A stretch of DNA of 64,000 bases from Bdellovibrionota bacterium (GCA_963170185.1 CAUJGS010000025.1:1-64000), one strand, 5' to 3'; shown: positions 10,730 through 32,277, numbered from the stretch's first letter. Translations and numbers: made by a program. Notes: generated by a model from the sequence alone, not told the origin.

Positions 10730-13700
10730 ATGCGACTCGCGTTGAAATTTTTCGTTTCATCTCTCACAGCCCTATCCGCTGCGTTTCTTCTTACGGCCTG
10801 CCCGAAAGATGTTTCGCTTCCATCGAGCGCAAATTCATCCGTGGGAACGCCTGGTTACGACGGCTTCACCGGTGCAATGACGGCCTCAACCGTCGGTCCG
10901 ACAAAAGTCAAACTCACATGGTCACGCGCAAGCGATCCAAAGGTTGTCGCCTACAACATTTACGACGCGACACTTTTTTTCGCTCCGAAACTTATCAAAA
11001 CGGTCACGGCAGAAGCGTCTGAAGTCACGATCAACAACCTTGAAACTCAAACATATTACAAGTTTCGAGTTCGCGCCGCCGACAAGGACATGACCGAAGA
11101 CGGCAACCTGATCGATCTTCCGGCTGTCCCCTATGCCGGAGTTTTACCGGCACAGGTGCAAAGCAGTACGTCGGCGATTGTACCGTTTAGCGATGCCAGC
11201 AACGCCGACGCCGTACGCATTCTCTGTCGGACAGCAACGAACCCCGTCGAAGAATCCATTGCTGAAGTCACGAACGTGATTTCTGTCACTCAGGCGACTC
11301 TCAATGGCCTCAGTGCCGGTTCTATCTACACCTGCCGCGCGGCGACTGTGTTCGGAGATTTCGTCGACAACAACTCGGTTACGACGACCTTCACTCCAAT
11401 GGGAACCGCGGCATCGCTTGTGTTTGCAACTCAACCAGGAAGTGCCGCAGCTGGCGCAAATCTTTCCACTCAACCTTCGATTCGAGTTCTTGACGCCAAC
11501 GGAACACTTGTCAGCGCCGGCCCGGATTCCCGTGCCGTAATCACACTGACGGTTTCCAATAGCTCGCCAACGGTGGGTACGATTCGCGGTACCGCGGCCA
11601 TGCAAGCCGTTGGCGGTGTAGCGACGTTCTCTGGCCTTAATCTGCAGGAAGCTGGCGCGAAGATCTTCACGGCTACGAAAGAAGACACCGCTTCACAGCC
11701 GCAAGGTTCCGCCGCAATCTCTCAGGACTCGAACCAATTCACAATCACGCCAGGAGCAGTCAGCGCCACAACCACAACGATCGCACTTTCTCCCGCCGTG
11801 CCACCGGCCGATCCTTTGATCGCAAACGGGATCGACTCCTATACCATCACGATCACTCTGAAAGACATGTACGGAAACGCCGTCGCCGGCACTCGTCCGG
11901 TCTTCGCGTCTAGCATCTCAGGCGACACACTCACCCAACCGAATATGAACACCAACGCGATGGGCGAAGCGACTGGCGCAATCTCATCGACGGTCGCCGA
12001 TAGCACACCCCCTTATCGCACCCTCAGTATCACATCTCCGGCCGGACTCACCGGCGTTACAGTCGCGGCACCTTTTGTTCCCGGTACCGCAACGAAACTC
12101 GCCTTCACAACTCAGCCATCCAATTCTCCGGCCGGTAACAACGGTATGGGTACGATTCGCGTCGCCGTTCAAGATACCAACGGCAACACGATTACAACCG
12201 GCCCCAACGCGACGGCACCGGTATCAATGGCAATTTCCAACAACGTAAATGGCGCCGTCCTAACAGGCACCACGACCGTCAACGCAGTTGCGGGTGTTGC
12301 CACTTTCACCGGCCTCGGTATCAGCAAAACCGGTACTGGCTACCGCTTGCTTGCCACCTCAGGCTCATTCACCGCGGCCTATAGCAACAGCTTCAATATC
12401 ACCGCCGGTACGCCGAATCGTATTGCGGTCACTGGACCGGCATCAGTTGTTTCGGGACTGTGTAGCACGGCCGTTACATTTCAGTTGCAGGATCTTGGCG
12501 GTAACCCCGCCAATGCCGTGCAGAACACATCTATTAATATCTCTGGCTTAGGCACTGGTCAGCTCTTCTCAAGCTCGACGTGTTCGGGTGCGGCCATCGC
12601 TGCGACTCAAACATTTACGGCGGGTACGAACACAAAGACCTACTACCTACGAGATGTAAAGGGCGAAGCCCTGACGATCACGGCGACAGACCCGTCGATG
12701 GTTCTTACGACGGGAACACACGGTTTAAATGTTCTTCCAAATAAAATTGCGCTTCTTGCAGAGAGCTCGCCCGGTGTTCCTCTCTCTGTCGTAGCGGGTC
12801 GTTGCTCGACGGCGCTGTATATCACTCCGGCCGGTGAGAACGGGGCCGCTGCTCCGGTTTTCTCCGCGACGAATGTCGCTATCACTGGCGTCATGGGCAC
12901 ACAAGCACAGCTCTATTCCGACGCGGCTTGTACCGTGGCAATCAACGCTTCAAACTTCGCACTCCCAGTCACGGCTGGTGGCAACTATCAAATTCCAATT
13001 TATCTCAAAGACGACAAGGCCGAGTCGTTAAGCCTTAACGTCACAGACCCCGGCTCTGTCATGACGACGACATCGGGATTGCAGTCGGTTTCCGTGCTCG
13101 CATCGAACATCGACTTCACAGGCCCAGCCAGCGTTATCTCGGGCCAGTGTTCCGCGGCATACACTCTATCAATGAAAGATGCGCAAGGGACTTTGGTAGC
13201 AGCCCCCGCGAACCGCACCCTCAATATTCGCGGTCTCGAGTCCAGTGCGAACGGCATGTTTTATACCTCGGCTTCTTGTACAACCGGCGGCAGTAAGACC
13301 GCGATGACAATCCCGCAAGGAAACTCGTCGCTGCAAATCTACTTTAAGAACACGGCTGCAGAAAACCTCGCCGTCTACTTCCAAGACTCGCTTTCACAGA
13401 TGGCTGATTCGCCGACTCGGAATATCGCCATTTCCCCTTCTGCTTTGACCATCACGGCCCCTGTTGCCGGCTCGTCTAAAACGACTGTGTGTGCGGGACC
13501 ATTTACCATCAACACACGCGATGGAGCCAACGGCGTCACCGCTGCTCTTTCGCCAATCAATGTCACTTTGACCGGAGCCAATACAGGCGGAGCCTTTTAT
13601 ACCAGCAGCAGTTGCGACACGACGATGACCGGAACAACATTCGCTGTCGGCCAAAGCGCTAGAACGTTCTACTTCCAAGGCCAGTATCCGCAAGCGGCAC

Positions 13701-16532: not shown

Positions 16533-19500
16533 ATGGATGGACGTTTGCTGAACACCACGAATATGAACCGAGTCCTCGGGCGCCAACTCATGGCACTCGT
16601 GCTGCTTGCCGCCGTTACCGGTTGCCGAGCGGGCGGTGGTGTAACCAACTCGCCAAGCCAAAACACGGTCACCGTTGTCGAGATCCCAACGATCGCCTCG
16701 CCTCTTACGACGCCCCACTATTCGCGAAACGACACTCTCACGATCACCGGTATGTGCATGACTGGCTACACAGTCAGCATCAGCGGTGACGCCAGCGAAA
16801 CCAAGACATGCGAGAACTCGGAATATTCGTTTGATGTTTTAAAAGTTCTAGATGGTCTTTATACATTTCAGATTTCACAAACAGGCAGCAACGGCACCAC
16901 GTCGGCCGGCGCACCGCTTGTATGGGTGAAAAAGACCAGTGTTCCACCCCCGACAATCACCACCCCTTCGAGTTCTCCTTTCCCATCGGCACAAGGTACT
17001 TTGACGATCGTCGGCGGTTGCGAAACCGGGTCGACAATTGCGTTGTCCGGAGATAGCGCGGGCACGGTTACTTGCGCAAATTCACTTTTCGCGTTCAGCG
17101 TTCCCAAAGTAGCTGACGGCGACTACAGCTTTCAGATTATGCAGACCGATCGTGCCGGCAACACGGCAAGTTCGAACCTTGTTTGGCACAAATACGGAAT
17201 CTCCGTGACGCCAAATAATCCATCGCTAGTCGTAGCCACCCAGCAGGCCCTTACCATCACCGGTGGTTCCGGCTCCTATGCGGTGAACGTCACGTCAAAT
17301 AACTCCGGTGGGTCCTACAACGCAATGACTCGTGTTTACACCACCGGTACTTTGGCCGGCGTCAACGACACCCTTCAGATTTCAGACACACTTGGCGCCG
17401 CACGCACTTTAACCATCACCACAGTGCCCGGCCCAGTCGATCACTTTTCGCTGCCGACAATCAATGGCGACGCCCAGGTGAAACCCGTCGGACAGCAGCT
17501 GGATGACGATCTTTCCATTAAAGTCGTCGATCGCTTTGAGAACGGGATTTCGAACTACCAAGTTTATTTCCATGTCGTCGACGGCGACAGCCGCGTCGTC
17601 GGCAATCCCGTAAGAACCACCAATGCCCAAGGGATCGCGAGCGTACCGGTGCGTACCGGATTCAGCAGCACAAAAAACGAGATCCTAATTAAACCGCTAT
17701 CGGGCTCACTCCCCGACCTAGCTGCCACCGGTAGAACGACTGTCACCATGACTCAAACCACGACGACTTCTGGTAAGGGACCACTGGGAACCGTGTTCAA
17801 TGTCGGCTCTTCTCCTAGCACAACCGCAGTCGTCGACCTAAACGGCGACGGCTATCGCGATGTCATCGTGCTAAACTCCGGTGAGCCAAGCATCGGAATC
17901 TTGCTGGGAAAAGGAAACGGTCTTTTCAATAACATGACCCGTATCACCGGCGTTTGTAATACGCCGACAGGGTTCACTGTTGGAAGTTTCAACTCCAACA
18001 TCGACACCTTTCTCGACATCGCCGTTTCGTGTGGCGGGTCCGACTCGATCGTGGTCTATACCGGACGAGGCGATGGCACTTTCAACACGCCACCGACAGT
18101 GATTTCGACCGCACCCAATGCCACGATTCCTCTTGCTATCGTGAGCGGCGATTTCAACAAAGACGGTCGACTCGATCTTGCGATCGCATCCACAGGCGGA
18201 TCCGTTGTCGCGACCTACACCGGCAACGGAAACGGCGGGTTTGCCGGTGAACAGATTTTCAACGTTGGCCTTTCTCCCAACTCTCTTGCGGTGGTTGATC
18301 TCGACAAGGATGGAAATCTCGACATCGTCGCTTCCAACGCCGGAGACAACACCTTGAGCGTGTTAAACGGCGACGGCACCGGCGGCTTTGGCCCACAAAT
18401 GACTTACGGCTCCGGAATCGGAGTCGTTTCCATTGCGTCGGCCGATTTCAACAAAGACGGCTGGCCGGATATTGCCGTTGCCGTGAACGGCGAGGACAAC
18501 GTCGCTATTTACCTCAACGATTTAACTGGTCTACTGGAAGCTCCGAACACCAACCCGGTCGGTGTCGGCCCGACATCTTTGACGATCGTAGATTACGACG
18601 GTGATGGAAACGATGATATCGTCGCCGTCACAAATGGCGACAGCATGGTGAGTGTCTTGCCGGGCTTAGGAAACGGAGCCTTTGGTGGCGCAATTTCAAG
18701 ACAAACCGTCATCAATCCCGCGTTCGTGTCTGTCGGTGACGTGAACGGTGACGGAACAAAGGACTTCGTCATATCTGGCGATGGTAAACTCGATGTCGTA
18801 CTGGTATTTGCTGGCGGAACGATAGGACTCGCGGTCGACACCGGAGCAAATCCGGTCGATGCCGTTTTTGCTCGATTCGATGACGATATCTACCTCGACA
18901 TGGCTGTGATCAACAGCGGCTCCAACAGTGTTCAAATCTTCCGCAGCGACGGCAAAGGTCGTTTCACCCTGATTACAACCATGGGGACAGGTGTCACTCC
19001 TATCGCACTAAAAACCGCGGACTTCAATCACGACGGACACATCGACCTCGTCGTCGCGAACAACGGAAATTCCAGCGTTCGAGTTTACCTCGGAAAAGGC
19101 GACGGCACGTTTGAGACACCTCTCGACTTCACGACCGCTTCCGGTCCTTCGGGAATCGCTATCCAAGACTTCAATGGCGATGGCTACGATGATCTCGCTG
19201 TCACCGGATCCAACGCCAATCGTGTCAGCATACTCCTTGGACTGGGTGACGGAACGTTCGGAACAAAAGTCGATTACATGACGGGTTCGAGTCCGACAGG
19301 CATCACGACCATTGACCTCAACGAGGATCAAGTTCCGGACCTTATCACGGCAAACAATTCGAGTAACGACGTCAGCGTACTTATCGGAAACGGCGACGGC
19401 ACGTTCCGCGCAAATGTCGAATACACGGCAGGCAACGGCCCGACTTCCATTGTCTCGGCAGACCTCAACAACGATGGCGTCGGCGACATCGCCGTGCTGA

Positions 19501-19835
19501 ACTCGACCGACGGTACCGTCAGTATCTTGCGTGGACTTGGCGACGGGTCTCTTTCGACCAACTCCGACTTCTCCACCGGTCTTTCCCCAGTCGGCCTTGT
19601 CGTCGGCGACTTCAATGGCGACACGAGACTGGATCTCGCCACAGGAAACGGCGCAAGCCTCGGTTTCACGACCTTGTACGGAGCAGGCAACGGTCAGTTC
19701 AACGTTTCCAACAGCTTCTCTTCCGAATATCCGGTCAATGGCATCGCGACGGGCGACGTCAACGGTGACTACGCCCTGGATATCATTCTGCTCGACAACA
19801 GCGGATCGAAGGCGCACACGTGGCTTGGACAATAG
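16533..19835 (+). CDS. surface lipoprotein with Ig-like domains and 14 FG-GAP/VCBS repeats
   Basis: 1,100 residues. Signal peptide with lipobox (LMALVLLAAVTGC). Two Big-type Ig domains (about 50-130 and 145-225, each with a Cys pair such as CETGSTIALSGDSAGTVTC), two further beta domains to about 400, then 14 FG-GAP/VCBS-type repeats with calcium-binding loops of the form DxNxDGxxD (DLNGDGYRD, DFNKDGRLD, DFNHDGHID, DVNGDYALD). Fourteen would make two seven-bladed propellers, as in integrin alpha heads. AGGA at 16518-16521 supports ATG 16533; ATG 16563 is a second in-frame option directly before the signal peptide. The start is 37 bases after the preceding stop, and the end overlaps the next gene by 16 bases. 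Likely exported to the surface. Confidence 0.85.
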   Translation: MDGRLLNTTNMNRVLGRQLMALVLLAAVTGCRAGGGVTNSPSQNTVTVVEIPTIASPLTTPHYSRNDTLTITGMCMTGYTVSISGDASETKTCENSEYSFDVLKVLDGLYTFQISQTGSNGTTSAGAPLVWVKKTSVPPPTITTPSSSPFPSAQGTLTIVGGCETGSTIALSGDSAGTVTCANSLFAFSVPKVADGDYSFQIMQTDRAGNTASSNLVWHKYGISVTPNNPSLVVATQQALTITGGSGSYAVNVTSNNSGGSYNAMTRVYTTGTLAGVNDTLQISDTLGAARTLTITTVPGPVDHFSLPTINGDAQVKPVGQQLDDDLSIKVVDRFENGISNYQVYFHVVDGDSRVVGNPVRTTNAQGIASVPVRTGFSSTKNEILIKPLSGSLPDLAATGRTTVTMTQTTTTSGKGPLGTVFNVGSSPSTTAVVDLNGDGYRDVIVLNSGEPSIGILLGKGNGLFNNMTRITGVCNTPTGFTVGSFNSNIDTFLDIAVSCGGSDSIVVYTGRGDGTFNTPPTVISTAPNATIPLAIVSGDFNKDGRLDLAIASTGGSVVATYTGNGNGGFAGEQIFNVGLSPNSLAVVDLDKDGNLDIVASNAGDNTLSVLNGDGTGGFGPQMTYGSGIGVVSIASADFNKDGWPDIAVAVNGEDNVAIYLNDLTGLLEAPNTNPVGVGPTSLTIVDYDGDGNDDIVAVTNGDSMVSVLPGLGNGAFGGAISRQTVINPAFVSVGDVNGDGTKDFVISGDGKLDVVLVFAGGTIGLAVDTGANPVDAVFARFDDDIYLDMAVINSGSNSVQIFRSDGKGRFTLITTMGTGVTPIALKTADFNHDGHIDLVVANNGNSSVRVYLGKGDGTFETPLDFTTASGPSGIAIQDFNGDGYDDLAVTGSNANRVSILLGLGDGTFGTKVDYMTGSSPTGITTIDLNEDQVPDLITANNSSNDVSVLIGNGDGTFRANVEYTAGNGPTSIVSADLNNDGVGDIAVLNSTDGTVSILRGLGDGSLSTNSDFSTGLSPVGLVVGDFNGDTRLDLATGNGASLGFTTLYGAGNGQFNVSNSFSSEYPVNGIATGDVNGDYALDIILLDNSGSKAHTWLGQ

Positions 19836-22800
19836 CACGCCTTCCCCTATGTATAGCTCTTTTGGGAGCCGCTTTTTCAACGGGATGTTTGGGAGGCGGA
19901 GGAGGCGGATCTTCGAGTCAACAAAGCCTGGGTAGCGTCCAATATCTCGGACATTCGGTTTCTACCTACGATTCACTGACGGCAACCATAAAAGCCCAAG
20001 GCCTTCTCAATATTTCCGGCGTCACCGATCTCAATGAAATTCAGATCTATTCGGACTCACAGTGTTTGCTAAACAGAGTGGGACACGGACTTCATCGTGA
20101 CTTCTCGGCCGACGGAATCGATGTCACTCTTCCAAGCACGGCCATCACGGATCTCTATCTCTCAACGAATACTTCGAAAACTTGCTACTATTTCTTTCAG
20201 TACGTTCCGAAGTACGACGCACCACCGGCGCCGGTATTCGGCTCGACAAGCCCCGCCTCACCATCGCGAGTCACGTTTCGTCCGTATATTTCCGGCGAAG
20301 TTTCACCCGCGACACTTTCGGTTCGGTTTTACCTCGATAACGCCTGTACGGTATCGGCCGGAACCGGGACCGCAAGTCAGTTCAAGACAACAGGCATTCA
20401 ACTCACTTTGCAGCCAGAAACAGATAACGAAATTTTCGCCATCGCGGCCGACGCGTTTGGAAAGTCCTCTGCCTGTGCGCCATTGACTCGGTTTCTTCAC
20501 GACTCCAACGGTCCAAACCCTCCCGTCTACGTCTCAACGACGCCGGTCTCTCCGTCGGGAGCATCGGCCACTCCCTTGATTAAGGGAACCGTCACCATGG
20601 AAACCCAGACGGTCTCGATATACACAGATGCGTCCTGCACACTGGAGACCGCCGCCGGAACCGCGGAGGACTTCCGCACGACAGGCATCCAGGTGACGGC
20701 AGCGCCAAACACGTCGACTTCTTATTACGCGATCGCGGTCGACGACAAAATGGTTCCATCTGACTGCACGTTCCTCACGATCTTCACACACGACGCCGTC
20801 GCACCAAACGCTCCGATCTTTGCGACCATCACGCCGATCTCGCCTTCTAAAACAACTCTCGTTCCACGCATTGCCGGCACGGCCTCTTCCGATACTCAGC
20901 AAGTCCGACTTTTTAGCAACGCGACCTGCACGACGATGATCGGATCAGGTACGAAAGCTGTTTTCGAAGCCGCCGGAATTCCAGCCGGTGTTCAAGCAAA
21001 CGAGATCACGACTATTTACGGTGTCGCAGTCGACGCCGCCGGAAATCTCTCCGCGTGTTCTCAATTGACTTCTTTTGAACACGACACGATTCCGCCCGAT
21101 CCTCCTATTTTCGGTCTCTCAATCCCGGCCTCTCCGAACAATCAATCCACGACTCCCTATCTTCAGGGCACTTCCGATATCAGCGCGGTCAACGTTCGTT
21201 TTTACAACGACGAAAACTGTACGAGTCTCATCGGCAGCGGCTCTACCGCCGCATTCGAATCTCCCGGCATTCAGGTTACCGTTGCAGGTAACACCACAAC
21301 TACGCTTTATGCGACTTCCGATGATGCCGCTGGCAACACATCAGTGTGCTCGGCACTCTCCAACTACGCTCACTCGACTCTTCCCGCTCCGGCACCCGGA
21401 TTCTTTCAGGCCACACCGCAATCACCGACGAGAATCACAAACCGTCCGTATATCATCGGAACCGCCGCCAGTACGGTCACAAAGGTCACGCTGTATAGCG
21501 ATGCCGCGTGTACCGGAAACCTCGGATCGGCAAGCCGATCGTTTTTTGTAACTTCAGGCGTGCAGGCCACCGTCGCAATGAACTCGCAAAGCTCGCTTTA
21601 TGCGATCTCGGAGGACGTGTATGGCAACGTCTCCGGATGCACCTTCATGACGAATTACATTCACAATACGATTCCTCCACTTAACCCTGTATTCACCTCG
21701 GTAACGCCGCTTTCGCCCAACAACCAATCCACCTCGCCCGTGATTCGCGGAAATCTTATCTTCGACCCGGGAAACGTTCTTCAGCCGAACGAAGTTTCTC
21801 TCTACGACGGCTTTTTATGCTTGAACAAAATCGGAACCGGAACACCCGCGGAATTTCAAGGAGCAGGGCTCACAGCTTCGCTTCCGGCAAACACAGCTTC
21901 GTCTGTCTACGCTCGAGTTTTTGATGCCGCAGGAAATATGAGCGATTGCACGCACATGACGGATTACATTCACGACGCCCTCGTACCAGGTCGTCCCGTC
22001 CTCGCCAGTATCAACCCGGGCACGCCGTCCTATAGCGCAAACACCGTCATGGTTGGCGCGGTGGGAACCACTCTCGACTTCTTGCCTCCGACAAATATGG
22101 TCGTGTACGACGACTCCAGCTGCCAATCGATTCTTAAATCCGCGCCTGTTTCACAGTTCACCGCAGGCACCTATACGCTGAACGTCGCCAAGAACACGAC
22201 CACAACTCTTTACGGTGCGATCTTTAACGAAGTCGGAACGGCTTCTCCTTGTACACTTCTAGTAAACTACCTGCACTCCGACGTTGGCCCGTCAAACCTT
22301 GGCGCCTCACAGAGCCTCGACGGTTCGGTGATTCTCAACTGGATGCCCGACACCGTCGCTCGTCCAGTGCCGACCTACGAGGTTCGTCGCTCTTTGCAAT
22401 CTGGAGGGCCATACACGACGATCGCCGAAGGAATCATCGGGACAACCTACACAGACTCCGCGATTTCGAACGGTCAAACCTACTTTTACGTCGTGGCCGC
22501 GAGAAACAACACGGGCGTCACCAAGAACTCGACGGAAACTTCGCACACCGTCAATGTCGCGACACCAAGCCAGCTGATGGGCCTCGCCGCGACTCCGGGG
22601 CCGGCACAGGTTTCTCTCACGTGGATCGGGTCGAGCGAAAACATGACCTATACGGTTCGCAGGTCCACCAACGCCGGAGGTCCTTACTCGGTAGTTGCCG
22701 CCGGATTAACCAACGCTTCTTATATCGATCAGCCGCTCGTGAACAGCACGACCTATTATTATGTCGTGACCGGAACCAACCCCGCCGGTCGTAGCGTCGA

Positions 22801-25800
22801 CTCCAACCAGGCCTCGGCAACGCCGCTTGAAGTCTCCGATGCGCCCACGAATTTGCAGCTCACTCAGGTCGAAAACTCATCGGACTGCGGCGGCTCTTTT
22901 GGAGTTTTGCTGACGTGGACACCGACAAAGCACTTCTCAAGCTTCAGCGTAAACCGCGGCACAAGTGCTTCGGCCAGCACTCCGATTCACAGTACGACCG
23001 GAACAAGCTGGGTCGACTGCAACCCAGCCAACTGGGTCAACGGCGGCGGTCAGGCTGACTACAACTACTACACCGTCACCGCGAACTGGGGCATGCTTCA
23101 ATCGGCGGAGTCCAACAAGGTTGTCTTCGTCAACGATGGCTCCGGCACTCTCCGGGCAAATCCCGGCAACGGGCTCGTCGAGATCACTTGGACCCCTGTT
23201 ACATACTCGTCGAGCTATCGTCTCTATCGATCGACAACGCCGGGAGGACCGTACACTCTGATTACCAACACGGCGAGCACCGCGTACATCGACTCCGCCG
23301 TCGTGAACAATCAATCTTATTTTTATATCATGATGGCGGAGTTCCCCAACGACTCGGCCCTCGGTCGTCAGACTCCGGAAGTCGCGGCGATGCCGGGAGC
23401 AAATCCCGAAGCGCCAACAAACCTGATCGTGAACGTCAACTCAAGCCGTCACCCTGTGTTGAGCTGGACATCTCCGCACGCCTTCAACTACTTCCGTATC
23501 TATCGCGCGAGCAACGCCGGCGGACCATACTCATTAGCGGGAACATCAAATGCCAACACGTTCACCGACACCACGCCGTCAATCGGAATGAATTTCTACC
23601 GAGCCGTAAGAGTCTGGGGCACTTCGGAGTCCGCACCGACAAATACCGTTCAAGTTCGTATCGGTTACCCGACGACAATCAATAGCAACTCGACGACAAC
23701 GGCGATCAACGTGACCTGGTCTTCTGTAGCAGGAGCCGATACGTACACCCTACTTCGATCGCTGACCTCCAACGGACCATACAGTGCCATCGACACCGTC
23801 GCCAATACGACGTATTCCGATACCAGCGTCGTCATCGACACCGGCTATTTCTATGTCGTTCGAGCCAACTTCCCGGATCTCACAGTCGGGCAGCTATCAA
23901 ACGAAGTCTCCGGAGCGCTTTCAAATTCGACGATTCCAACCGGCCTCACCGTTACCGCGACAACACAGTCGAGCGTCACACTCAATTGGCCACGCATCTC
24001 AGGTGCGACTAGTTACAAAATTTTTCGCGCCTCGACCATCAACGGGACGTATCTTCTCGCGGCTCAGCAGTCGAGCATCGGAATCAATATCACTGCTTTG
24101 GCAGGTCTTTCCGAACACTTCTTCAAATACTCTTTTGTGCGAGGCGGAATCGAATCCGTAGCGTCGGAAGCGGTCTCCGCCTACACATGGGCCACTCCAT
24201 CAGCGCCGGTCGTGACCGCCGGAAGTGGCTCAATTGATCTCGGCTGGGGAACCGTATCGGGCTCCAGTTCCTATTCGGTTGAACGCTCGACAGACGGCGA
24301 GACTTTCGGCACGATCGCCTCTGGCCTCACGCTTCCTCAATACACCGATGCAACCGTGGCCAACGGCACGCTCTATCTGTATCGTGTGGTCGCGCACTTC
24401 CCTTCTTCCGACACAAGGACATCCGCCGCTTCTACGGCAGTTACACCGGGACTTGTGCCGCGAGCTCCAACCGGATTGTCGATCACAAAGAATCTCGACG
24501 GCACCGATATCGAACTTTCTTGGGGACCTAGCGCAGGAGCGACATTCTACCGAATTTATCGGTCGACAGTGAATGGCGGTCCCTATACGCAGGTTTCTCA
24601 AACGTCGAACTATCTCAACAACACCGTTAGCGGCCACACTCCCGGCACGAAATACTACTTCGTGGTGGCTGCCGTCATTGGAAGTCTGGAGTCGCCATAC
24701 TCCAATCAGGTTGCGACGATCCCGCTTTCATCACCGAACGCTCCGATCGTCGCTGTGAATGGCGCAAATATCGATATCTCCTGGAGCGCGGTCGCCGGCG
24801 CGACTCAGTATTACGTTCGTCGTGCGACCGATCGAGCCAACTTCGCGACGATTGCAGGCCCCATCGGGGCAACAAACTACACTGACACATCGACCACAGC
24901 TGGGATGACATATTCTTATCGATTCCAACCAGTCGACACTGCCGGCGCTTATCTCGCGGAATCGCTGATTAGCTCCGACATCACGATCGGAGTTCTACCG
25001 GAAACTCCTCAAAACCTTATCGGCGCTTCCTCATCGACAAACTCTATCTCATTAAGCTGGACACAAGTGCCAAACTCGGTGGGATACATCTTGTATCGCT
25101 CGACTGTATCGGGTGGACCCTACTCGCGGATTGCGACGCCTGGAGCAACCAATCACACCGACAACGGACTGACTCCCGGCACGACCTATCACTATGTCGT
25201 TAGCTCGCGCGATCTTTCCGGCAACCGTTCGCTTTATTCGAATCAGGTTTCTATTCGCTTAGCTTCGCAGCCGGCAAACCTCATCGCCACGGCGCTCTCA
25301 GACGTCATCCAGCTCACCTGGAATGCTGTCGGTGGAGCCTCTGGGTACTCGGTCTATAGATCGCTTAATTCGGGCGGCCCCTATGGACGAATCGCTCAAA
25401 CCGTCGCAAGCAATAGTTATCAGGACAATAGCATTCAAAACGACGTCGTCTACTACTACGTCGTACGAGCCGAATTTGGATCGGAACTCTCCCCGCAGTC
25501 GACGGAAGCCAGCGCTATCGGAGTTCGACGCATTAATCTGCAAGTTCCTATCGAACTCGTCGATCAAAGTCTCTCGTCGGATACAAACACTCACGCCTTT
25601 GAACGGACGCTCACGACTTTCGATACATCCCTTTACGATGGAACCGTGACCTATGAGTTCGAGGCCGTGGTTTTAAACGCCGATAGCTCTGCGCGCAACG
25701 TGCGCTTGGTAAATGAAACCGATGCGGTCGTCGGCACTCTTGTCGTTCCTGCCGGAACCAACGAGCGGCGCCGAATGCGAACTACCTTCACACCGACGGT

Positions 25801-26722
25801 TGGTGACCATCGCTATCGCGTGCAGACAGAGGGCACTTCATCCTCCGGTATGCTTGAAGTGACAACCGCTAGGATCCTTGTAACGCAAGTTTCCGCTAGC
25901 AAAACCGCGATTTATATTCCGCTGTTAAGCTCGTCGGCCGGTGCCTACATTGGTGATGCCGACGGTCCGGTGAGTACCGCCAATCAGATGACTTACGAGT
26001 CCCTATCCGCCGCTTCGATATTCCGTCGTGAAGCGTCCAAGTATGCTGAGTTGGTTTCGCAGAACCCATGGCGCCTGGAGACTCTTGTATCGGCAACTGG
26101 AACCACCGTCGGTGCCGTTTCACTTTACAACATCACACGCGCGGACCATGTCGACGACACCGAATCGATGTTCTCAGGATCAAGCGTTCAGCTTTCCGTT
26201 TCTCCGTTTCAAGACGGCGTCACCGGGTTTTCAAGCGCCAACGAGATGGATCTCTATCAAGTAGCGCTTCGCTGCGTAGCCGAATGTGACTCGGGCCAGG
26301 CTCGTCTTTACAAAGCAGGTCTTTGGGTTTATTTGAAAAACCTCGACAAGGCGCAGGTGATTTTCCGTATCGGCCTCGGTGCAACTCCCTCGTCACCAAC
26401 AAACTATGAGCATCAGCGCACTCGCATCAACCTCAGTCAGTTCTCGAACCCAGTTTCCTACTTCCAGGCAACAGCGACGATTCTTGCCGGTATGAGTTCT
26501 GGAACAGTTTGGTTGAGCGATGTCGGCAACGAGGACTTTGGCCTCACAAGCCCGACCCTCGTGCCTTCATCCGAGCTCACCGTGAATTCCAACACGAAGT
26601 CTTTATATCGATCGCCGGCACTCGCGCCGACATCAGACCACCGCTTTGTTCCAAGCGTTGATCCCGGAAGCGCCATGCTTCAGATCACCGATAGCGCGAT
26701 CGTTATAGACGTCAGCCACTAA
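19820..26722 (+). CDS. 2300-residue surface lipoprotein with eight Cys-paired Ig-like and twelve FN3 domains
   Basis: Starts at GTG 19820 inside the end of the preceding gene (16-base overlap). Signal peptide LPLCIALLGAAFSTGC is followed by a Gly/Ser linker (GGGGGG). The N-terminal 830 residues hold about eight repeats with the pattern PxxPxF-TPxSPS, a mid-repeat Cys in DxxCT, GTG..F, and a second Cys before LT or MT, ending FxHD. Then come twelve FN3 domains of about 85 residues with the recurrent YRS-GGPY and YYYVV elements, then a 400-residue C-terminal part of beta type with no recognised family (GTVTYEFEAVVLNADSSA, YQVALRCVAECDSG). The product is most likely anchored in the outer membrane and facing outward. 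The FN3 units are diverged from each other, so this is an old expansion. Confidence 0.85.
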   Translation: MAWTIARLPLCIALLGAAFSTGCLGGGGGGSSSQQSLGSVQYLGHSVSTYDSLTATIKAQGLLNISGVTDLNEIQIYSDSQCLLNRVGHGLHRDFSADGIDVTLPSTAITDLYLSTNTSKTCYYFFQYVPKYDAPPAPVFGSTSPASPSRVTFRPYISGEVSPATLSVRFYLDNACTVSAGTGTASQFKTTGIQLTLQPETDNEIFAIAADAFGKSSACAPLTRFLHDSNGPNPPVYVSTTPVSPSGASATPLIKGTVTMETQTVSIYTDASCTLETAAGTAEDFRTTGIQVTAAPNTSTSYYAIAVDDKMVPSDCTFLTIFTHDAVAPNAPIFATITPISPSKTTLVPRIAGTASSDTQQVRLFSNATCTTMIGSGTKAVFEAAGIPAGVQANEITTIYGVAVDAAGNLSACSQLTSFEHDTIPPDPPIFGLSIPASPNNQSTTPYLQGTSDISAVNVRFYNDENCTSLIGSGSTAAFESPGIQVTVAGNTTTTLYATSDDAAGNTSVCSALSNYAHSTLPAPAPGFFQATPQSPTRITNRPYIIGTAASTVTKVTLYSDAACTGNLGSASRSFFVTSGVQATVAMNSQSSLYAISEDVYGNVSGCTFMTNYIHNTIPPLNPVFTSVTPLSPNNQSTSPVIRGNLIFDPGNVLQPNEVSLYDGFLCLNKIGTGTPAEFQGAGLTASLPANTASSVYARVFDAAGNMSDCTHMTDYIHDALVPGRPVLASINPGTPSYSANTVMVGAVGTTLDFLPPTNMVVYDDSSCQSILKSAPVSQFTAGTYTLNVAKNTTTTLYGAIFNEVGTASPCTLLVNYLHSDVGPSNLGASQSLDGSVILNWMPDTVARPVPTYEVRRSLQSGGPYTTIAEGIIGTTYTDSAISNGQTYFYVVAARNNTGVTKNSTETSHTVNVATPSQLMGLAATPGPAQVSLTWIGSSENMTYTVRRSTNAGGPYSVVAAGLTNASYIDQPLVNSTTYYYVVTGTNPAGRSVDSNQASATPLEVSDAPTNLQLTQVENSSDCGGSFGVLLTWTPTKHFSSFSVNRGTSASASTPIHSTTGTSWVDCNPANWVNGGGQADYNYYTVTANWGMLQSAESNKVVFVNDGSGTLRANPGNGLVEITWTPVTYSSSYRLYRSTTPGGPYTLITNTASTAYIDSAVVNNQSYFYIMMAEFPNDSALGRQTPEVAAMPGANPEAPTNLIVNVNSSRHPVLSWTSPHAFNYFRIYRASNAGGPYSLAGTSNANTFTDTTPSIGMNFYRAVRVWGTSESAPTNTVQVRIGYPTTINSNSTTTAINVTWSSVAGADTYTLLRSLTSNGPYSAIDTVANTTYSDTSVVIDTGYFYVVRANFPDLTVGQLSNEVSGALSNSTIPTGLTVTATTQSSVTLNWPRISGATSYKIFRASTINGTYLLAAQQSSIGINITALAGLSEHFFKYSFVRGGIESVASEAVSAYTWATPSAPVVTAGSGSIDLGWGTVSGSSSYSVERSTDGETFGTIASGLTLPQYTDATVANGTLYLYRVVAHFPSSDTRTSAASTAVTPGLVPRAPTGLSITKNLDGTDIELSWGPSAGATFYRIYRSTVNGGPYTQVSQTSNYLNNTVSGHTPGTKYYFVVAAVIGSLESPYSNQVATIPLSSPNAPIVAVNGANIDISWSAVAGATQYYVRRATDRANFATIAGPIGATNYTDTSTTAGMTYSYRFQPVDTAGAYLAESLISSDITIGVLPETPQNLIGASSSTNSISLSWTQVPNSVGYILYRSTVSGGPYSRIATPGATNHTDNGLTPGTTYHYVVSSRDLSGNRSLYSNQVSIRLASQPANLIATALSDVIQLTWNAVGGASGYSVYRSLNSGGPYGRIAQTVASNSYQDNSIQNDVVYYYVVRAEFGSELSPQSTEASAIGVRRINLQVPIELVDQSLSSDTNTHAFERTLTTFDTSLYDGTVTYEFEAVVLNADSSARNVRLVNETDAVVGTLVVPAGTNERRRMRTTFTPTVGDHRYRVQTEGTSSSGMLEVTTARILVTQVSASKTAIYIPLLSSSAGAYIGDADGPVSTANQMTYESLSAASIFRREASKYAELVSQNPWRLETLVSATGTTVGAVSLYNITRADHVDDTESMFSGSSVQLSVSPFQDGVTGFSSANEMDLYQVALRCVAECDSGQARLYKAGLWVYLKNLDKAQVIFRIGLGATPSSPTNYEHQRTRINLSQFSNPVSYFQATATILAGMSSGTVWLSDVGNEDFGLTSPTLVPSSELTVNSNTKSLYRSPALAPTSDHRFVPSVDPGSAMLQITDSAIVIDVSH

Positions 26723-26741: not shown

Positions 26742-27401
26742 CTAGAGAAGAATGAAGAGACCGCAGCCGAGCGAGTATTCCGACAAACTCGAAGACAGCG
26801 TCGGCGATTGGAAAATCGTCGTGGAATAAAGAAACTCAGGCCGAATGCCAATCCCAGGGGCCAAGGGATAGTCAGCACCCAAACGAATTCCGAAATACAC
26901 GCCACTGCCTTCGATCGAAGGCACTAAGTCGTTGTCGCGCTTGATGGTCGCCATGGCCGCACCCACTGCTCCACCAACGTAGGGAGTAAAACGGCGGATT
27001 AGCAGAAGAGGTTTTTCGCCTTCGGTATCGCCCACAGAAGCGGCCGGCCCCCAGAAGTACCACCTTGCAGATACACCGGTAAAAGAAGAACCCATCGAAA
27101 AGGGAGCGAAATTCACCCCGCGCGTGTGTTCGATACCAAGAGAAAAGAAATCCGAAAGAAGACGATCCGCGAAGATCGAGATCACTGCGGGGCCTTCGCT
27201 TCGCTCGACAATCGTTAACTGATCTTGGACCGTCGCGACTTGCGTGACGCCGGATCCTCCAAAACCCAAAGAGCCCCCAAGACGATAGCGAGACGACTTC
27301 GCGATCGCGGGAGTCGCGGCCGCCATGATAGCCATCGACATCAAAACCGATATCGTGATCGCTTGGATCAACGCTATGTTACGCCGCACGATTTCGCTCA
27401 T
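26742..27401 (-). CDS. outer-membrane beta-barrel protein
   Basis: A 219-residue protein with a signal peptide (IQAITISVLMSMAIMAAATPAIAKS). The mature part alternates hydrophobic and polar residues in strands with Gly and aromatics (YRLGGSLGFGG, VSARWYFWGPA, RFTPYVGGAVGAAMATI, GVYFGIRLGADYPL, YSLGCGLFILL), as in small OmpA/OmpW-like barrels. ATG 27401 is chosen because AGGGG is four bases upstream; a GTG at 27422 is also in frame. It overlaps the 3' end of the FliF/FliG-like gene by 23 bases, so both are translated from one message. It ends 19 bases from the convergent giant lipoprotein gene, with no evident terminator between. Confidence 0.75.
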   Translation of the reverse strand: MSEIVRRNIALIQAITISVLMSMAIMAAATPAIAKSSRYRLGGSLGFGGSGVTQVATVQDQLTIVERSEGPAVISIFADRLLSDFFSLGIEHTRGVNFAPFSMGSSFTGVSARWYFWGPAASVGDTEGEKPLLLIRRFTPYVGGAVGAAMATIKRDNDLVPSIEGSGVYFGIRLGADYPLAPGIGIRPEFLYSTTIFQSPTLSSSLSEYSLGCGLFILL

Positions 27402-29253
27402 CTTGCCCCTCGACGTTTCCACCCTCGGTCACGCTAGCACCGTTCTCTTTGAAGGGGAAGATTTCATCTAGCACCAGCGTCTTGGTCATCACCAACGTCC
27501 TTAAGCGCTTCGCAAGAGACTCGATCCATACACCTTTGTCCTTTGCCGACAGTTTGTCGGGCTTCGACAATTCATCGGTGACCATCGCAACCGTCAACTG
27601 AGGTGCAACCTTCAACAGACGTTCTTGCAAATCGGGTCGAACACGGCAAAGTGCGACAACCTCATCCGTCGAGGCTTGTGCCAGAAGAGTCCCAACTGCA
27701 TCATCCGGCCACTCGGCAAGGAACGCCAATGTCGGCGTCGTACGACGGAACTCCTCCGCGGCAGGCCCCTGCATCCCAGCAAGAAGCACAACCTCTTCCA
27801 CCGGCTCCAAGGCCTCGACGAGTTTGTTCAGTGTCATCTCAAGAGGCACGATCTCCGCTTTTTCGTCGGACTTGAACTTTGACATCAAGCCGCGATCAAA
27901 ATCCCGGAGCTCAGCCGAAGGAATTTCGCTCATGCCAGCTGCCGCCACCAAGAGCTCACGCTTGGCATCGAGACTCATCGTCTTCATAAATTTCGAACGA
28001 AGTTCAGTCGGCATAAAGAGCGAGACCACTGTGCGCATCTTCGGATTTTGCTCCATCAGCACTTGGCTCACCATTCCGATATTGAGGCCACCAAGGTACC
28101 CAAATGGCTGTTCCAGGGCTGACGGACCGACGTTCAAAACTGTCAGAAGATCCCAATAAGATTTCTGTAAAATTTCATGTTTCTCGCGTACCTGCACTTC
28201 CGACATGCGCGCAAAGATACGAGTGATATCGGAAACCGCATCCACCGGGATCGGCAACTTTCCAACCTCTTTGCCAACGACTTCCGAGAAAATCGCCACT
28301 TTCTTCCAACCCGTTTCTCCGCTCTGACTCCAAGAACGCATAATCGCTTCGAGATGCAGGTTGATCTTCGGCAAAACTTCGAGGATTTTTTCTTTCAAAG
28401 AGTCCACACCAAGCCGCGCGATTTCCTCTTCGCGGGCCTGCTTTTCGTCTGCCAAACGCTGCTTTTCTTCTTCGCTCATGCCAACGGCCGCGGCCGTGGT
28501 ACCAGAAGACACGTTGGTATTGCTGGTCGTCGAGGAGGATTCAACAGGTGCAGCACCTTGTGTCGCGGCCTTCCGAGGAGTCAAAATCCCCCACAGCAGA
28601 ACACCCAAGACGATCGCCGCAGCCAAAGCCAACTGGCCCGCGAGGCTTTGAAACTGGTTCAGCATGTCCCACGTGGTTTTAGGAGCCGCCATCTCGGGAG
28701 CTTTTTGTGGAGCTACACGAATCGTCGTTACCGTGCCCTTGCCGACTTTGCCAAACTCGGAGTTCACGCGCTCGGTGACCCACTTCTCGATCTCCGTGCG
28801 AGCTTCCGCGGGAACTGTTTCGCTGAGCCCGACATTTACCGCAACGGTGCGAATCTTAAAGCCTTCCAAAAACTGCTTCGCCACTTCGTGCTGTTGACCC
28901 GGCGGAGAATAGTTTTTCAGCAACGCCTCCGGATCTAGCATTCCCAATGTCAAATCGGAGATCGGCTCCATTTCACCAGATACTGCAACCGTCGGCGGTT
29001 GCTCGATCTTCCTAGGAACCGCTTGTAAATCGAGCTCCGCGCTGATCGAAAACATCGAGCGGTCCAAGCGAGTCGCCAAATTCTGTGTAAAACGTCTTGC
29101 CAGAAGATCTTCAAGCAAAGCCTTGGCGCTTAATGCATCCGGCGCGAGCGCCGTAGGTGACGCCGCATAGCTCGCCGGGAAAACAAATTGAACCGCGATG
29201 AAAATCGCAGTCGCCAATCGAACAAATCTATTTTTCCGTTTCGGGTGACTCAT
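27379..29253 (-). CDS. FliF-FliG-like single-chain rotor protein
   Basis: 624 residues. A signal peptide (about 1-31) is followed by a periplasmic domain that matches the last ring-building part of FliF: SISAELDLQAV at 69-79, and KIRTVAVNVGL followed by EKWVTERVNSEFGKVGKGTVTTIRV at 133-180, like FliF 'rlsvavvvd...' and its closing strand. One membrane helix lies at about 206-224 (LALAAAIVLGVLLWGIL). After a Ser/Thr linker and a charged helix come three segments in FliG order: N-like GWKKVAIFSEVVGKEV at 315-330 with MSEVQVREKHEIL; M-like VLMEQNPKMRTVVSLFMP at 398-415 (FliG has EHPQ here); and a C-like helical part at about 470-590. In flagella FliF and FliG are separate proteins. The family call is by eye. 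Confidence 0.7.
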   Translation of the reverse strand: MSHPKRKNRFVRLATAIFIAVQFVFPASYAASPTALAPDALSAKALLEDLLARRFTQNLATRLDRSMFSISAELDLQAVPRKIEQPPTVAVSGEMEPISDLTLGMLDPEALLKNYSPPGQQHEVAKQFLEGFKIRTVAVNVGLSETVPAEARTEIEKWVTERVNSEFGKVGKGTVTTIRVAPQKAPEMAAPKTTWDMLNQFQSLAGQLALAAAIVLGVLLWGILTPRKAATQGAAPVESSSTTSNTNVSSGTTAAAVGMSEEEKQRLADEKQAREEEIARLGVDSLKEKILEVLPKINLHLEAIMRSWSQSGETGWKKVAIFSEVVGKEVGKLPIPVDAVSDITRIFARMSEVQVREKHEILQKSYWDLLTVLNVGPSALEQPFGYLGGLNIGMVSQVLMEQNPKMRTVVSLFMPTELRSKFMKTMSLDAKRELLVAAAGMSEIPSAELRDFDRGLMSKFKSDEKAEIVPLEMTLNKLVEALEPVEEVVLLAGMQGPAAEEFRRTTPTLAFLAEWPDDAVGTLLAQASTDEVVALCRVRPDLQERLLKVAPQLTVAMVTDELSKPDKLSAKDKGVWIESLAKRLRTLVMTKTLVLDEIFPFKENGASVTEGGNVEGQDERNRAA

Positions 29254-29268: not shown

Positions 29269-29910
29269 TTATGGTCCGCGCGGTCTGGTGGCCGCCGGAT
29301 CCCTTCCACTTTGAATAGCCTTGACCTTCGCGACCATCTTGACCGCATCCTCCATCTGAGGATCTGAGACCAACGCCTGTTCGTAGAACTTCAAACTTTC
29401 CGAATAATTTTTCTGCGCAAAGTAAATAGAAGCTTTCATGGAAAGTGCACGAGCGAAGCCCGGAAAGTCCGTGAGAATCTTATCGAGTTCGATCAAGGAA
29501 CGCTCGTACTGTTGGGAGAGCGCGAATTTCTGCGCCAAGAACAACCGATCCAACACGGACTTCGCAAAACGCTCTTCTTTCGGAGTCGTACCTTGCACCA
29601 ACGGAACATTTAGTTCCGTCACCAGAGTCCCAAACTGAGCGGCCGGCAGCAGAAAGGATTGAGTGACATGCCCGGCCTTCTCAACCGAGACCGTAAAAAA
29701 CTCCCCGGAAACCATTTCGTCGCCGACCTTTTCGCGAATCTCCGACATCGGCATCTCGAGTGGGGTTTTTCCCACGAGTTTCTTCTCCGAAGACTTCGGA
29801 TTCACAAAGTAAACATCCGCTTCAATCGGCTCGCTCTGCACTTTGAACTTGTGCGCGCAACCAACCAGAAGACCACAAACAACAATAAGAAGAGCAATTG
29901 GTGTTTTCAT
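29269..29910 (-). CDS. TPR lipoprotein with PEGA-like N-terminal domain
   Basis: 213 residues from ATG 29910. The signal peptide MKTPIALLIVVCGLLVGC ends in a lipobox. Residues about 20-105 form a PEGA-like beta domain (SEPIEADVYFVN, GKTPLEMPMSEI, FTVSVEKAGHVTQSF). The C-terminal part has at least two TPR motifs (ALSQQYERSLIELDKILTDFP, IYFAQKNYSESLKFYEQAL, with SDPQMEDA next). ATG 29919 and a GTG at 29952 are also in frame; none has a clear ribosome binding site, and 29910 gives the cleanest signal peptide. It precedes the FliF/FliG-like gene by 15 bases in one operon, so it is a likely outer-membrane or periplasmic partner of that rotor-like protein. Confidence 0.8.
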   Translation of the reverse strand: MKTPIALLIVVCGLLVGCAHKFKVQSEPIEADVYFVNPKSSEKKLVGKTPLEMPMSEIREKVGDEMVSGEFFTVSVEKAGHVTQSFLLPAAQFGTLVTELNVPLVQGTTPKEERFAKSVLDRLFLAQKFALSQQYERSLIELDKILTDFPGFARALSMKASIYFAQKNYSESLKFYEQALVSDPQMEDAVKMVAKVKAIQSGRDPAATRPRGP

Positions 29911-30059
29911 CTGAATCATATATCGACTTAATTCGAGACGAACTTGAGACACCTGAGACAGTCACGCCTGGCTCCCGACCAAGGTCTATCGGACCCGACA
30001 CCACTACTCATCAACGCCTCGCTCGCGATATTCTCTTCTCCATGAAGGAAACCCACATC

Positions 30060-30767
30060 ATGCATCAGCCATTCTTTCTCTCGGCCGTTCTTCTAGCGAC
30101 CGCCTCCGTCACTTTATTGGGCTGCTCCAAGCCCGACCTGAAAGATCCGAACATTCAAGAGAGCTACGCCATCGGCAGAGAAGTCGGCGAGACCTTCGTC
30201 CGCCAAGAGATGAAGGTGAACGAAGACGCCTTTCTACTTGGTCTACGTGATGCCATGAAAAACGAACCTTCAAAGCTTGACTCGGCGACTTTGGCCGAGG
30301 CCTCACACCGAGCCCGTCAACAAGCGATGAAGAAGTTCCAGGACATGCAGGCGCAAGCCGCCGAGTTTTTGCGAGCTAGCGAGGCCTACTTGGCCGAGAA
30401 CAAAAAGAAGCCCGAGGTTAAAACGACTTCGTCTGGCTTACAGTACGAAGTTCTCACCCTGGGCAAGGGTCAAAAACCCAAAGACCAGCAGATGGTCGAA
30501 GTGCACTACGAGGGAAAACTCATCGATGGAACGATTTTCGATTCGTCGGTTCAACGAAAGAAAAGCGCCGAATTCAATTTGAACCAAGTGATTCCCGGGT
30601 GGATAGAAGTTCTTAAAATGATGCCCGTGGGATCAAAATGGAAAGTCACGATTCCGCCCGCGCTCGCTTACCGCGATGCAGGTATGCCGCCGAAAATTCC
30701 ACCAAACGCTGTTCTGATATTTGAAATTGAGCTTTTAAAAGCCTGGGATGCGCCCAAAGCTCCGTAG
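30060..30767 (+). CDS. FKBP-type peptidyl-prolyl isomerase lipoprotein
   Basis: Periplasmic folding helper of the FkpA/Mip type, 235 residues. Signal peptide FFLSAVLLATASVTLLGC with lipobox. An N-terminal helical dimerisation domain (about 25-115, YAIGREVGETFVRQEMKVNEDAFLLGLRD and onward) is followed by the FKBP domain at about 130-232 with VEVHYEGKLIDGTIFDSS, VIPGWIEVLKMMPVGSKW, IPPALAYRDAGMPPKIPPN and LIFEIELL, which hold most of the usual active-site positions. ATG 30060 is chosen over 30042 because AAGGA is ten bases upstream of it and the signal peptide begins there. It lies between the TPR lipoprotein (divergent) and motB (convergent, ten bases away). Confidence 0.92.
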   Translation: MHQPFFLSAVLLATASVTLLGCSKPDLKDPNIQESYAIGREVGETFVRQEMKVNEDAFLLGLRDAMKNEPSKLDSATLAEASHRARQQAMKKFQDMQAQAAEFLRASEAYLAENKKKPEVKTTSSGLQYEVLTLGKGQKPKDQQMVEVHYEGKLIDGTIFDSSVQRKKSAEFNLNQVIPGWIEVLKMMPVGSKWKVTIPPALAYRDAGMPPKIPPNAVLIFEIELLKAWDAPKAP

Positions 30768-30777: not shown

Positions 30778-31488
30778 CTAATCCAAAGGTGCCGATTTCA
30801 GAATCTGGATAACAACACGACGATTAGCCGACTGGTTTTCCAAGTGTGGCACACCTTGATCGTCGCGGTTATTCACAGCCGGTTTCGTATCAGCCCAACC
30901 GACAGACATGAGATGAGTGCGATCGAAGTTTTCTCGTTCGAAAAACCGCACGATGCTGCTGGCACGCAACGCCGAGAGCTCCCAGTTGGATGCGATCACA
31001 CCTTGCGTGATCGGCGTGTCGTCGGTGTGACCTTCCACCAAAATATAGAAGCCCGGAGCTTCTGTCTTGATCACCGGTGTCAGCTCTCCGAGCAAGCTAA
31101 TCGCCTCCGAACGAGGATTCACCGAACCAATATCAAAAAACACCGTTCCGCGAAATGTGATCCCCACCCCGCGCGCGTTGGTCTCGACGGTGACCTGCTC
31201 GGAAAGCCCTTTTGCCTCGATCACAGCTTGAATTTGCTTCTGCAGCTCTTCGAACGGTTTTTTGTACTCGCCACCAAAGAGTTCCGCGGAATGCATACGC
31301 ATCTCTTCGGCCTTCTTGTCGTCGAACTTCGAGAAACTCAGCATCAACGCGAAAAAGCCCATCAGCAATGTCATCAAGTCCGCATACGAAACCAGCCAAG
31401 GGCCTTCGCCCTCTTCTGCCTTATGAGCCTTAGGTGGCCCTCCGGCAGGTAGCTCGTCTTCGTCGTGATGGTGCTGTTCGGCAGCCAT
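30778..31488 (-). CDS. motB: MotB-type stator protein
   Basis: Stator subunit that conducts ions and anchors to peptidoglycan. 236 residues, shorter than the roughly 300 of E. coli MotB. The His/Asp/Glu-rich N-terminus leads to one membrane helix with the ion-binding Asp at residue 37 in PWLVSYADLMTLLMGFF. After the helix come a plug-like amphipathic stretch (SKFDDKKAEEMRMHSAELF), a helical linker and an OmpA-like domain from about residue 110 (VFFDIGS, VEGHTDDTPI, NWELSALRASSIVRFF, NQSANRRVVI) which binds the cell wall. It starts three bases after motA. Together with the rotor-like gene on the same strand 1.5 kb further on, it could drive a motor other than the flagellum, although a flagellar stator is equally possible. 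Confidence 0.93.
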   Translation of the reverse strand: MAAEQHHHDEDELPAGGPPKAHKAEEGEGPWLVSYADLMTLLMGFFALMLSFSKFDDKKAEEMRMHSAELFGGEYKKPFEELQKQIQAVIEAKGLSEQVTVETNARGVGITFRGTVFFDIGSVNPRSEAISLLGELTPVIKTEAPGFYILVEGHTDDTPITQGVIASNWELSALRASSIVRFFERENFDRTHLMSVGWADTKPAVNNRDDQGVPHLENQSANRRVVIQILKSAPLD

Positions 31489-31491: not shown

Positions 31492-32277
31492 CTATGCCGC
31501 CTTCTTCAGAGTCGCGCGCTCTTTAGGAAGCAAATACGACTTGAGAGATTCCTCGACGATCAAAGGGTGCTTCTTTAAGCGGATGAGCTTCACGCCTTCG
31601 ATCACCATCATGCGAATGTTGTAATCCATCTTCGTCAGCTTCGTGAGATACTCGCCAAGCGGTAGAAAAATGAAGTTCGCGACAGCGATACCGTAAAGTG
31701 TCGCGACGAGCGCGATCGCAAGCGACGGACCAACCGACTTGATCGCGTCCGACGACCCAAGACCTTGCATCATCGCCACAATCCCCATAACCGCGCCAAG
31801 AAGACCAAAAGCCGGCGGGAACTTGGACATCGTTTTGAAAATCTCCGCATCTTGCTCGTAACGATGAAAGTGCGTCATCGCACGCTTCATCAAGATCGTA
31901 TCAAGCTCTTTTGGCTCAATTCCCCCAGCCGCCATCAGCTCGAGAGCTTCTTTGAAGAACGGGTTCTTCACGGTTTTGGACTTTTCACCAATTGCCGCGG
32001 GATTGTCGCGATAGGCTTTCGCCACTTCGACAACCTCTTTGATAAGGATGTCGTAACGATCGACTTCGTTTTTCAGAACTCGAGTAAAGAACACCTTCGT
32101 CATGTTCAACATGCTGGCGCCACCAAACGAAACCAGCCAGGCGGCGAGTGTGCCACCGAGAACGATTAGCGCCGCGTGATAATCCAAAAAGACTTTGTAT
32201 TCCTTGGTCGACGTGAGCGCCGCACCAAGAAAGACAACAAGGGAAAGGACGAGACCGATTAACATCGAGATGTTCAT
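31492..32277 (-). CDS. motA: MotA-type stator protein
   Basis: Ion channel and torque subunit, 261 residues, close to the PomA/MotA length. Four membrane helices: about 3-20, 33-55, and a pair at about 150-175 (FPPAFGLLGAVMGIVAMMQGL) and 182-207 (VGPSLAIALVATLYGIAVANFIFLPL), which is the Pro-containing signature region. The cytoplasmic loop between helices 2 and 3 is charged (RYDILIKEVVEVAKAYRDN, HFHRYEQDAEIFKTMSKF) as expected for contact with FliG. It is the first gene of the motAB pair; upstream I find no clear ribosome binding site and no CCGATAG promoter. Confidence 0.95.
   Translation of the reverse strand: MNISMLIGLVLSLVVFLGAALTSTKEYKVFLDYHAALIVLGGTLAAWLVSFGGASMLNMTKVFFTRVLKNEVDRYDILIKEVVEVAKAYRDNPAAIGEKSKTVKNPFFKEALELMAAGGIEPKELDTILMKRAMTHFHRYEQDAEIFKTMSKFPPAFGLLGAVMGIVAMMQGLGSSDAIKSVGPSLAIALVATLYGIAVANFIFLPLGEYLTKLTKMDYNIRMMVIEGVKLIRLKKHPLIVEESLKSYLLPKERATLKKAA

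Follow-up and report, generated by a model that had tools for sequence, protein, structure and literature searches.

Gene content and organization of the locus

The window (the whole stretch of DNA analysed, 64,000 nucleotides of a Bdellovibrionota genome) contains, at 27,379–29,253 on the minus strand, a gene for a 624-aa FliF(RBM3–TM)–FliG fusion protein that we propose to be a one-chain rotor. On the same strand, downstream is a gene for an outer-membrane beta-barrel protein (26,742–27,422) that overlaps the fusion gene at its 3′ end, and upstream are genes for a PEGA-like/TPR lipoprotein with the lipobox LVGC (29,269–29,952), MotB (30,778–31,488) and MotA (31,492–32,277). The barrel protein is a conserved neighbour with a Pfam OMP_b-brl match (E = 4e-4) below the cut-off. 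MotB consists of a plug/TM segment with the ion-carrying Asp37 and an OmpA peptidoglycan-binding domain, and MotA, of the flagellar PomA/MotA type, has Arg90 and Glu98 in the positions of the torque interface. An FKBP-type peptidyl-prolyl isomerase gene lies between those of the lipoprotein and MotB on the opposite strand (29,898–30,767); it is also found in one other locus (L036) and is probably a bystander.

The remaining module members are encoded on the plus strand. These are, outwards from the fusion gene, a giant repeat-rich lipoprotein of 2300 aa (19,820–26,722; FN3-like by eye) that is conserved beside the fusion, a 1100-aa FG-GAP repeat lipoprotein (16,533–19,835), a 1924-aa lipoprotein with beta-propeller-like repeats by eye (10,721–16,495), a 362-aa predicted outer-membrane protein judged by eye to be a barrel (9,407–10,495), a LysM peptidoglycan-binding lipoprotein (8,433–9,356), an 876-aa coiled-coil protein (5,745–8,375) and a GYF-domain membrane protein (4,326–5,681). 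The last of these matches the gliding protein GltJ (AgmX) of Myxococcus with E = 6e-10, in the GYF domain only, and an NCBIfam search of the module for Agl-Glt parts likewise returned the GltJ GYF region only. A gene for the Ras-like GTPase MglA (2,594–3,184, plus strand; PDB MglA, E = 1e-80) lies ∼1.1 kb from that of the GYF protein. It may be a bystander of a dnaX-recR-mglA locus, and we left this linkage out of the evidence because the gene adjoins recR and dnaX.

Homologues of the window genes from 4,326 to 26,722 accompany the fusion in other genomes. Among ∼54 loci that contain the fusion or a relative, several of which end at contig ends, the TPR lipoprotein is present in 48, MotA in 34, MotB in 34 and the barrel protein in at least 33. 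No flagellar genes were found in the module.

Domain homologies of the fusion protein

The fusion gene is real, since full-length homologues (67% down to ∼22% identity) recur across the order, in 33 of its 141 genomes. A family-profile search also finds homologues in other classes of Bdellovibrionota; 76 of 369 genomes match the profile at E ≤ 1e-5, a count that includes canonical FliG and longer relatives. As a query for contig scans, an alignment of the closer homologues recovered eight loci, in Bdellovibrionales, Bdellovibrionaceae and Pseudobdellovibrionaceae MAGs; the single window protein recovered nothing, and the broad fusion alignment had no stretch sufficiently conserved to serve as a query. 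Two loci (L025, G103:C11; L026, G105:C18) contain similar fusion genes with one in-frame TGA, which is possibly a stop just outside the true start (i.e. an artefact) or the mark of a pseudogene; genome G105 has a stop-free copy as well.

The order of parts given by a reading of the sequence alone, i.e. signal peptide, RBM3, TM helix and FliG, holds overall. A hydrophobic N-terminal segment read from the sequence as a signal peptide (residues 1–31; 29,161–29,253) ends at a putative SPase I site, ASYA-AS. It is followed by a periplasmic, FliF RBM3-like ring-building domain (residues 38–178; 28,720–29,142), identified with AlphaFold and Foldseek and with hhalign, by a single TM helix in the position of FliF TM2 (residues 194–224; 28,582–28,674) and by a cytoplasmic part with a region of FliG homology (residues 315–598; 27,460–28,311) that is weak in the N domain and firm in M and C. 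In AlphaFold models of the protein and of its isolated domain (mean pLDDT ∼70), the periplasmic part comprises helix 38–60, strands 68–78 and 132–144, helix 149–170 and strand 171–178, an alpha-beta-beta-alpha-beta order as in a ring-building motif, and the cytoplasmic side comprises a long helix (261–310) and a helical FliG-like part that extends to ∼598.

We assign FliG M and C domains firmly from sequence comparisons. The Pfam matches of the single window protein (FliG_C, E = 0.003; FliG_M, E = 0.05) are both below the Pfam cut-off; among 24 homologues, FliG_C is matched in 18 and FliG_M in 14. The family profile retrieves crystal structures of FliG M + C first in the PDB (1lkv, E = 3e-12), and hhalign aligns the fusion family with Bdellovibrionota FliG at 97% (E = 1e-10) over FliG residues 22–338. 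This alignment begins at GWKKVAIF, exactly where the sequence-only reading had placed the start of FliG. The N domain of FliG, which that reading had included among the three FliG segments, does not reach significance in hhalign by itself (4%) and is only colinear, from FliG residue 22, in the full alignment. A Foldseek search with the AlphaFold model also places FliG at the top (FliG-C 1qc7, 2.2 Å over 80 columns) and finds the MotAB-bound FliG-C structure 8ucs with probability 0.99. A match to a generic helical repeat was considered and rejected, FliG always being the top match. Canonical FliG is a soluble cytoplasmic protein bound to FliF; the fusion instead carries a signal peptide, an RBM and a TM helix.

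Two lines, fold and profiles, support a FliF relationship of the periplasmic part. Modelled in isolation and submitted to Foldseek, this domain retrieves FliF first (9a67, an integrative model; E = 7e-6, probability 1.0), and ∼16 of the first 25 matches are FliF chains, those other than 9a67, to experimental structures, having E values of only ∼0.03–0.1. OsmC/Ohr proteins, which have a similar topology, score like these FliF chains, and PrgH/PrgK are also among the matches. By sequence the window family matches FliF weakly (P = 0.006–0.01), with the alignment placed at the start of RBM3. We held the direct match (P = 0.01, FliF of one order) to be unproven until diverse FliF sequences and a sister family of the fusion, hereafter type 4, were added. 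Profile–profile comparison (hhalign) then relates the periplasmic domains of type 1 (the window family) and type 4 at 94% (E = 1e-7), and type 4 to FliF RBM3 + TM2 at 94% (E = 1.5e-7); types 1 and 4 merged are colinear with FliF over 179 columns (69%, E = 4e-5). The RBM1–2 control in these comparisons gives ∼1% or less, the Pfam FliF family (PF01514: N-terminal TM helix, RBM1 and RBM2) has no match in the fusion, and the RBM-type periplasmic residues number only ∼140. At the sequence level, the RBM3–TM2 relationship is established through the type-4 bridge. Our results support the view that the fusion keeps FliF RBM3 and TM2 without RBM1–2, which bears out the FliF part of the sequence-only reading. 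That reading had named two structure searches that could refute it, and both came out in its favour, with the FliF RBM3 fold recovered for the periplasmic part and FliG for the cytoplasmic part.

We also analysed the residues of the torque interface, mapped through our alignment to FliG and given in E. coli FliG numbering (D288, D289 and R281). The position equivalent to D288 is acidic in all 24 homologues and that equivalent to D289 in 22; in the window protein they are D560 and E561 (27,571–27,576, minus strand). A basic residue occupies the R281 position in only 12 of the 24, and the window protein has Leu there. On the stator side, contact of MotA R90 with FliG D288/D289 has been described (PMC12505986). 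The Arg90 equivalent of the module MotAs is Arg in 14 of 16, the Glu98 equivalent is acidic in 8 of 16 (Glu in the window MotA) and Asp37 is invariant among the module MotBs compared. The module stator thus combines a MotA with an Arg90-type torque loop and the proline residues with a MotB that has the membrane Asp and an OmpA domain. The positions of the FliM-binding EHPQR motif are not conserved among the fusion homologues, and the window protein reads EQNPK there. A MotA tree separates the module MotAs mostly according to fusion type. The window MotA clusters with the MotAs of two non-flagellates (G042 and G131), and the flagellar-type MotA of the window's own genome is far off on a long branch.

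These data bear on a reading in which the protein forms a static ring or channel, like SctJ or SpoIIIAG, and its FliG-like part is an armadillo or MgtE_N-like scaffold that does not rotate. Rotation is not known for the RBM rings of injectisomes and of sporulation, and a static ring would be consistent with PrgH/PrgK among the fold matches and with a weak Pfam match to MgtE_N in 11 of the 24 homologues. However, FliG is the best match in both sequence and fold, including the MotAB-contacting C domain, the linkage and co-grouping with MotA are strong, and the torque acids are conserved. We consider a static ring extremely improbable.

Carriers with and without a flagellum, and variants of the fusion

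Most carriers are flagellated (FlhA in 47 of 50), and the window's genome itself has canonical fliF and fliG as separate genes in a flagellar operon elsewhere. Two carriers, G042 (97% complete) and G131 (99%), are without FliF, FlhA and FliM/N, and a third with a divergent fusion, G294 (89%), is without FlhA and FliM/N. G042 and G131 have the module set of the window (GYF, LysM, barrel and giant lipoproteins) and a module-type MotA on the fusion contig (E = 1e-107 and 1e-116, respectively); in G294, MotA and MotB adjoin the divergent fusion. Among relatives that have neither FliF nor the fusion, five with a completeness of at least 90% (G015, G056, G113, G130 and G133) have no MotA match. Weaker MotA matches occur in other FliF-less genomes; some of these are incomplete, but they also include G064 (95% complete) and G128 (94%), both without the fusion, where the matches are moderate. 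We rejected a flagellar pseudogene or a flagellar duplicate as explanations of the fusion, the module being conserved without flagella.

Could the fusion be an accessory part of the ordinary flagellum, e.g. a rotor ring of an alternative kind, or an additional set of stators at the polar motor? Besides the prevalence of flagellated carriers, this would agree with the contribution to swimming reported for MotAB pairs of Bdellovibrio bacteriovorus HD100 (see below). Against it stand the carriers without FliF, FlhA and FliM/N, the absence of flagellar genes from the module, the loss of the FliM-binding motif and the separate canonical FliF and FliG genes elsewhere in the window's genome. A flagellar accessory is, in our view, very unlikely. 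The MotA and MotB genes of the module and the same carriers lend support to the non-flagellar, MotAB-driven motor that the sequence-only reading had proposed, and the module looks like an undescribed motor because it has its own stator and is present even without a flagellum.

The fusion occurs in several versions. Type 2 proteins (f22/f26) are 750–830 aa long with a longer, cysteine-bearing periplasmic part, and match FliG with E = 2e-15 over residues 63–328. In variants of this length at eight loci (L132–L139), the periplasmic part seems to consist of two RBM-like repeats with conserved cysteine pairs. Type 4 proteins (∼580 aa; FliG match, E = 1e-28) are a sister version present in B. bacteriovorus HD100 and Tiberius. 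Type 3 (A9; TPR-MotA-MotB-577aa-barrel) has no FliG or FliF match in profile comparison and is therefore excluded from the fusion proteins. The window's genome contains a second stator module (L195, G000:C44:78000-96000, positions 6195–13907) with a TPR lipoprotein, MotA, MotB, a 577-aa signal-peptide/TM protein without a detectable FliG or FliF match, a barrel and a 1036-aa protein; similar modules occur at L194, L197 and L198. A lone 257-aa protein with a significant FliG_C match (E = 1e-9) is encoded on another contig (L056, G000:C40, 9907–10680) beside an ABC transporter and away from flagellar genes.

In HD100 (L231, G039:C1:2913421-2920190), the type-4 fusion, whose gene spans about 2913421–2915154 on the minus strand, is accompanied by a TPR lipoprotein, MotB and MotA. 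From position and orientation, this MotAB pair is most likely motA2-bd3021/motB2-bd3020, as named in PMC11323537. In the same paper, FliL-Bd1076 did not interact with either MotA2 or MotB2. Three MotAB pairs of HD100 are reported to contribute to swimming with the single flagellum (ref. 41, as cited in PMC11323537), and one of them is probably the pair of this sister module.

A candidate rotary motor and its relation to known systems

We propose that the fusion is the rotor of a dedicated non-flagellar, ion-driven (MotAB) motor, most likely one that drives surface components in gliding; as a whole this reading is a likely one. It is built on sequence and comparison, i.e. the homologies, the MotAB linkage, the torque residues and the presence without flagellar genes. 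These strongly suggest that the fusion is a rotor, and we hypothesize that gliding is the use to which the motor is put.

In such a motor, copies of the fusion would assemble into a ring by means of their RBM3-type periplasmic domains and their single TM helices, with the FliG part of each subunit facing the cytoplasm and fixed to the ring because it belongs to the same chain. The OmpA domain of MotB would tether MotA/MotB to peptidoglycan, and the MotA loop (Arg90) would act on the FliG torque helix (Asp560–Glu561) and turn the ring; given the loss of the FliM-binding motif, a FliM/FliN C-ring would not be needed. The periplasmic face may then hand rotation to the outer-membrane side (i.e. 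the TPR lipoprotein, barrel and LysM protein), which could so move the giant surface lipoproteins. Ring formation, rotation, coupling to surface proteins and gliding are what we infer from this arrangement, and its most likely use would be surface (gliding) motility or the moving of adhesins.

Alternatively, the same rotor could power a MotAB-driven envelope machine, Tol/Ton- or secretion-motor-like, whose role is not motility but the movement or export of surface lipoproteins, the upkeep of the outer membrane or a contribution to prey entry. Among stator-driven machines of the envelope, some are known to have other outputs. The module also has the parts that such a machine might require (barrels, the LysM protein, the coiled-coil protein and giant lipoproteins), and the giant lipoproteins might serve as cargo instead of as adhesins. 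This reading seems unlikely to us, albeit worth keeping in mind: the GYF protein matches the gliding protein GltJ, if only in its GYF domain, FliG-type torque residues are retained and the phylum has flagellum- and pilus-independent gliding without identified machinery (PMC13104615).

Bdellovibrio glides independently of flagella and of pili, by a machinery that a 2026 review describes as unidentified and as a major open challenge (PMC13104615). HD100 has an Agl-Glt system and an aglS mutant is defective in attachment (PMC3169522, PMC6561027), so gliding of this strain may use Agl-Glt. A more far-reaching possibility, which we put forward tentatively, is that the fusion module in its several versions is the gliding motor of Bdellovibrionota: a one-chain FliF–FliG ring with its own MotAB, which would be a second kind of rotary motor and either a descendant or a sister of the flagellar rotor. 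Type 4 of HD100 and Tiberius would then use MotAB2. If our proposal is true, torque of the flagellar type can be generated in the absence of a flagellum, a C-ring and an export apparatus, a point relevant to the evolution of the flagellar motor and to the smallest rotor that MotAB can drive. It also names a testable candidate for the Bdellovibrio gliding machinery that is present in the laboratory strain HD100, and a MotAB pair traditionally assigned to the flagellum may have to be reassigned.

In the open-licence papers searched, excluding preprints, we found no description of this system or of a non-flagellar FliG motor, and the FliF–FliG(M) fusion of Chlamydiaceae is the only natural precedent found. 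The fusion shares with the flagellar rotor and stator (i) RBM3–TM and FliG M/C homology, (ii) MotAB with an ion channel and torque loop and (iii) the torque acids and MotA Arg90. In contrast to the flagellar rotor, it is one chain in which a signal peptide replaces TM1, RBM1–2 are absent and the FliM motif is lost; unlike the flagellum, its module is without an export apparatus, rod and hook, and occurs in non-flagellates.

The Chlamydiaceae fusion is likewise natural, with a truncated FliF joined to FliG after the last TM helix, in non-flagellated bacteria (PMC4768692). It is ∼330 aa long, has two TM helices and FliG-M only, and is without the SpoIIIAG-like (RBM3) domain (Bergeron 2016, PMC4768692). 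A natural fusion of FliF and FliG is therefore not entirely new, albeit that the RBMs differ: the chlamydial protein has an SctJ-type RBM, whereas the window fusion has RBM3 and one internal TM helix. The latter keeps RBM3 without RBM1–2, carries the FliG-C torque domain as well as FliG-M and has MotAB in its module. Artificial FliF–FliG fusions in Salmonella and Vibrio show that a fused rotor assembles rings, and those of Salmonella still rotate; they are, however, laboratory or mutant constructs inside a flagellum.

Among gliding machineries, Agl-Glt of Myxococcus and Bdellovibrio is also stator-driven and envelope-spanning, with TPR and barrel proteins, and the GYF protein of the module resembles GltJ in one domain. 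The AglRQS stator of Agl-Glt is TolQ/TolR-type and FliG is not mentioned (PMC3169522), whereas here flagellar-type MotA/MotB accompany a FliG rotor; the module stators are MotA and MotB_plug + OmpA rather than a TolQ-like AglR with two TolR-like subunits and GltD/E/G. The closest functional analogue is GldLM/T9SS of Bacteroidota, a rotary motor that moves giant surface adhesins (PMC13104615). A FliF/FliG part has not been described for it, and GldLM resembles MotAB without being homologous (PMC13104615).
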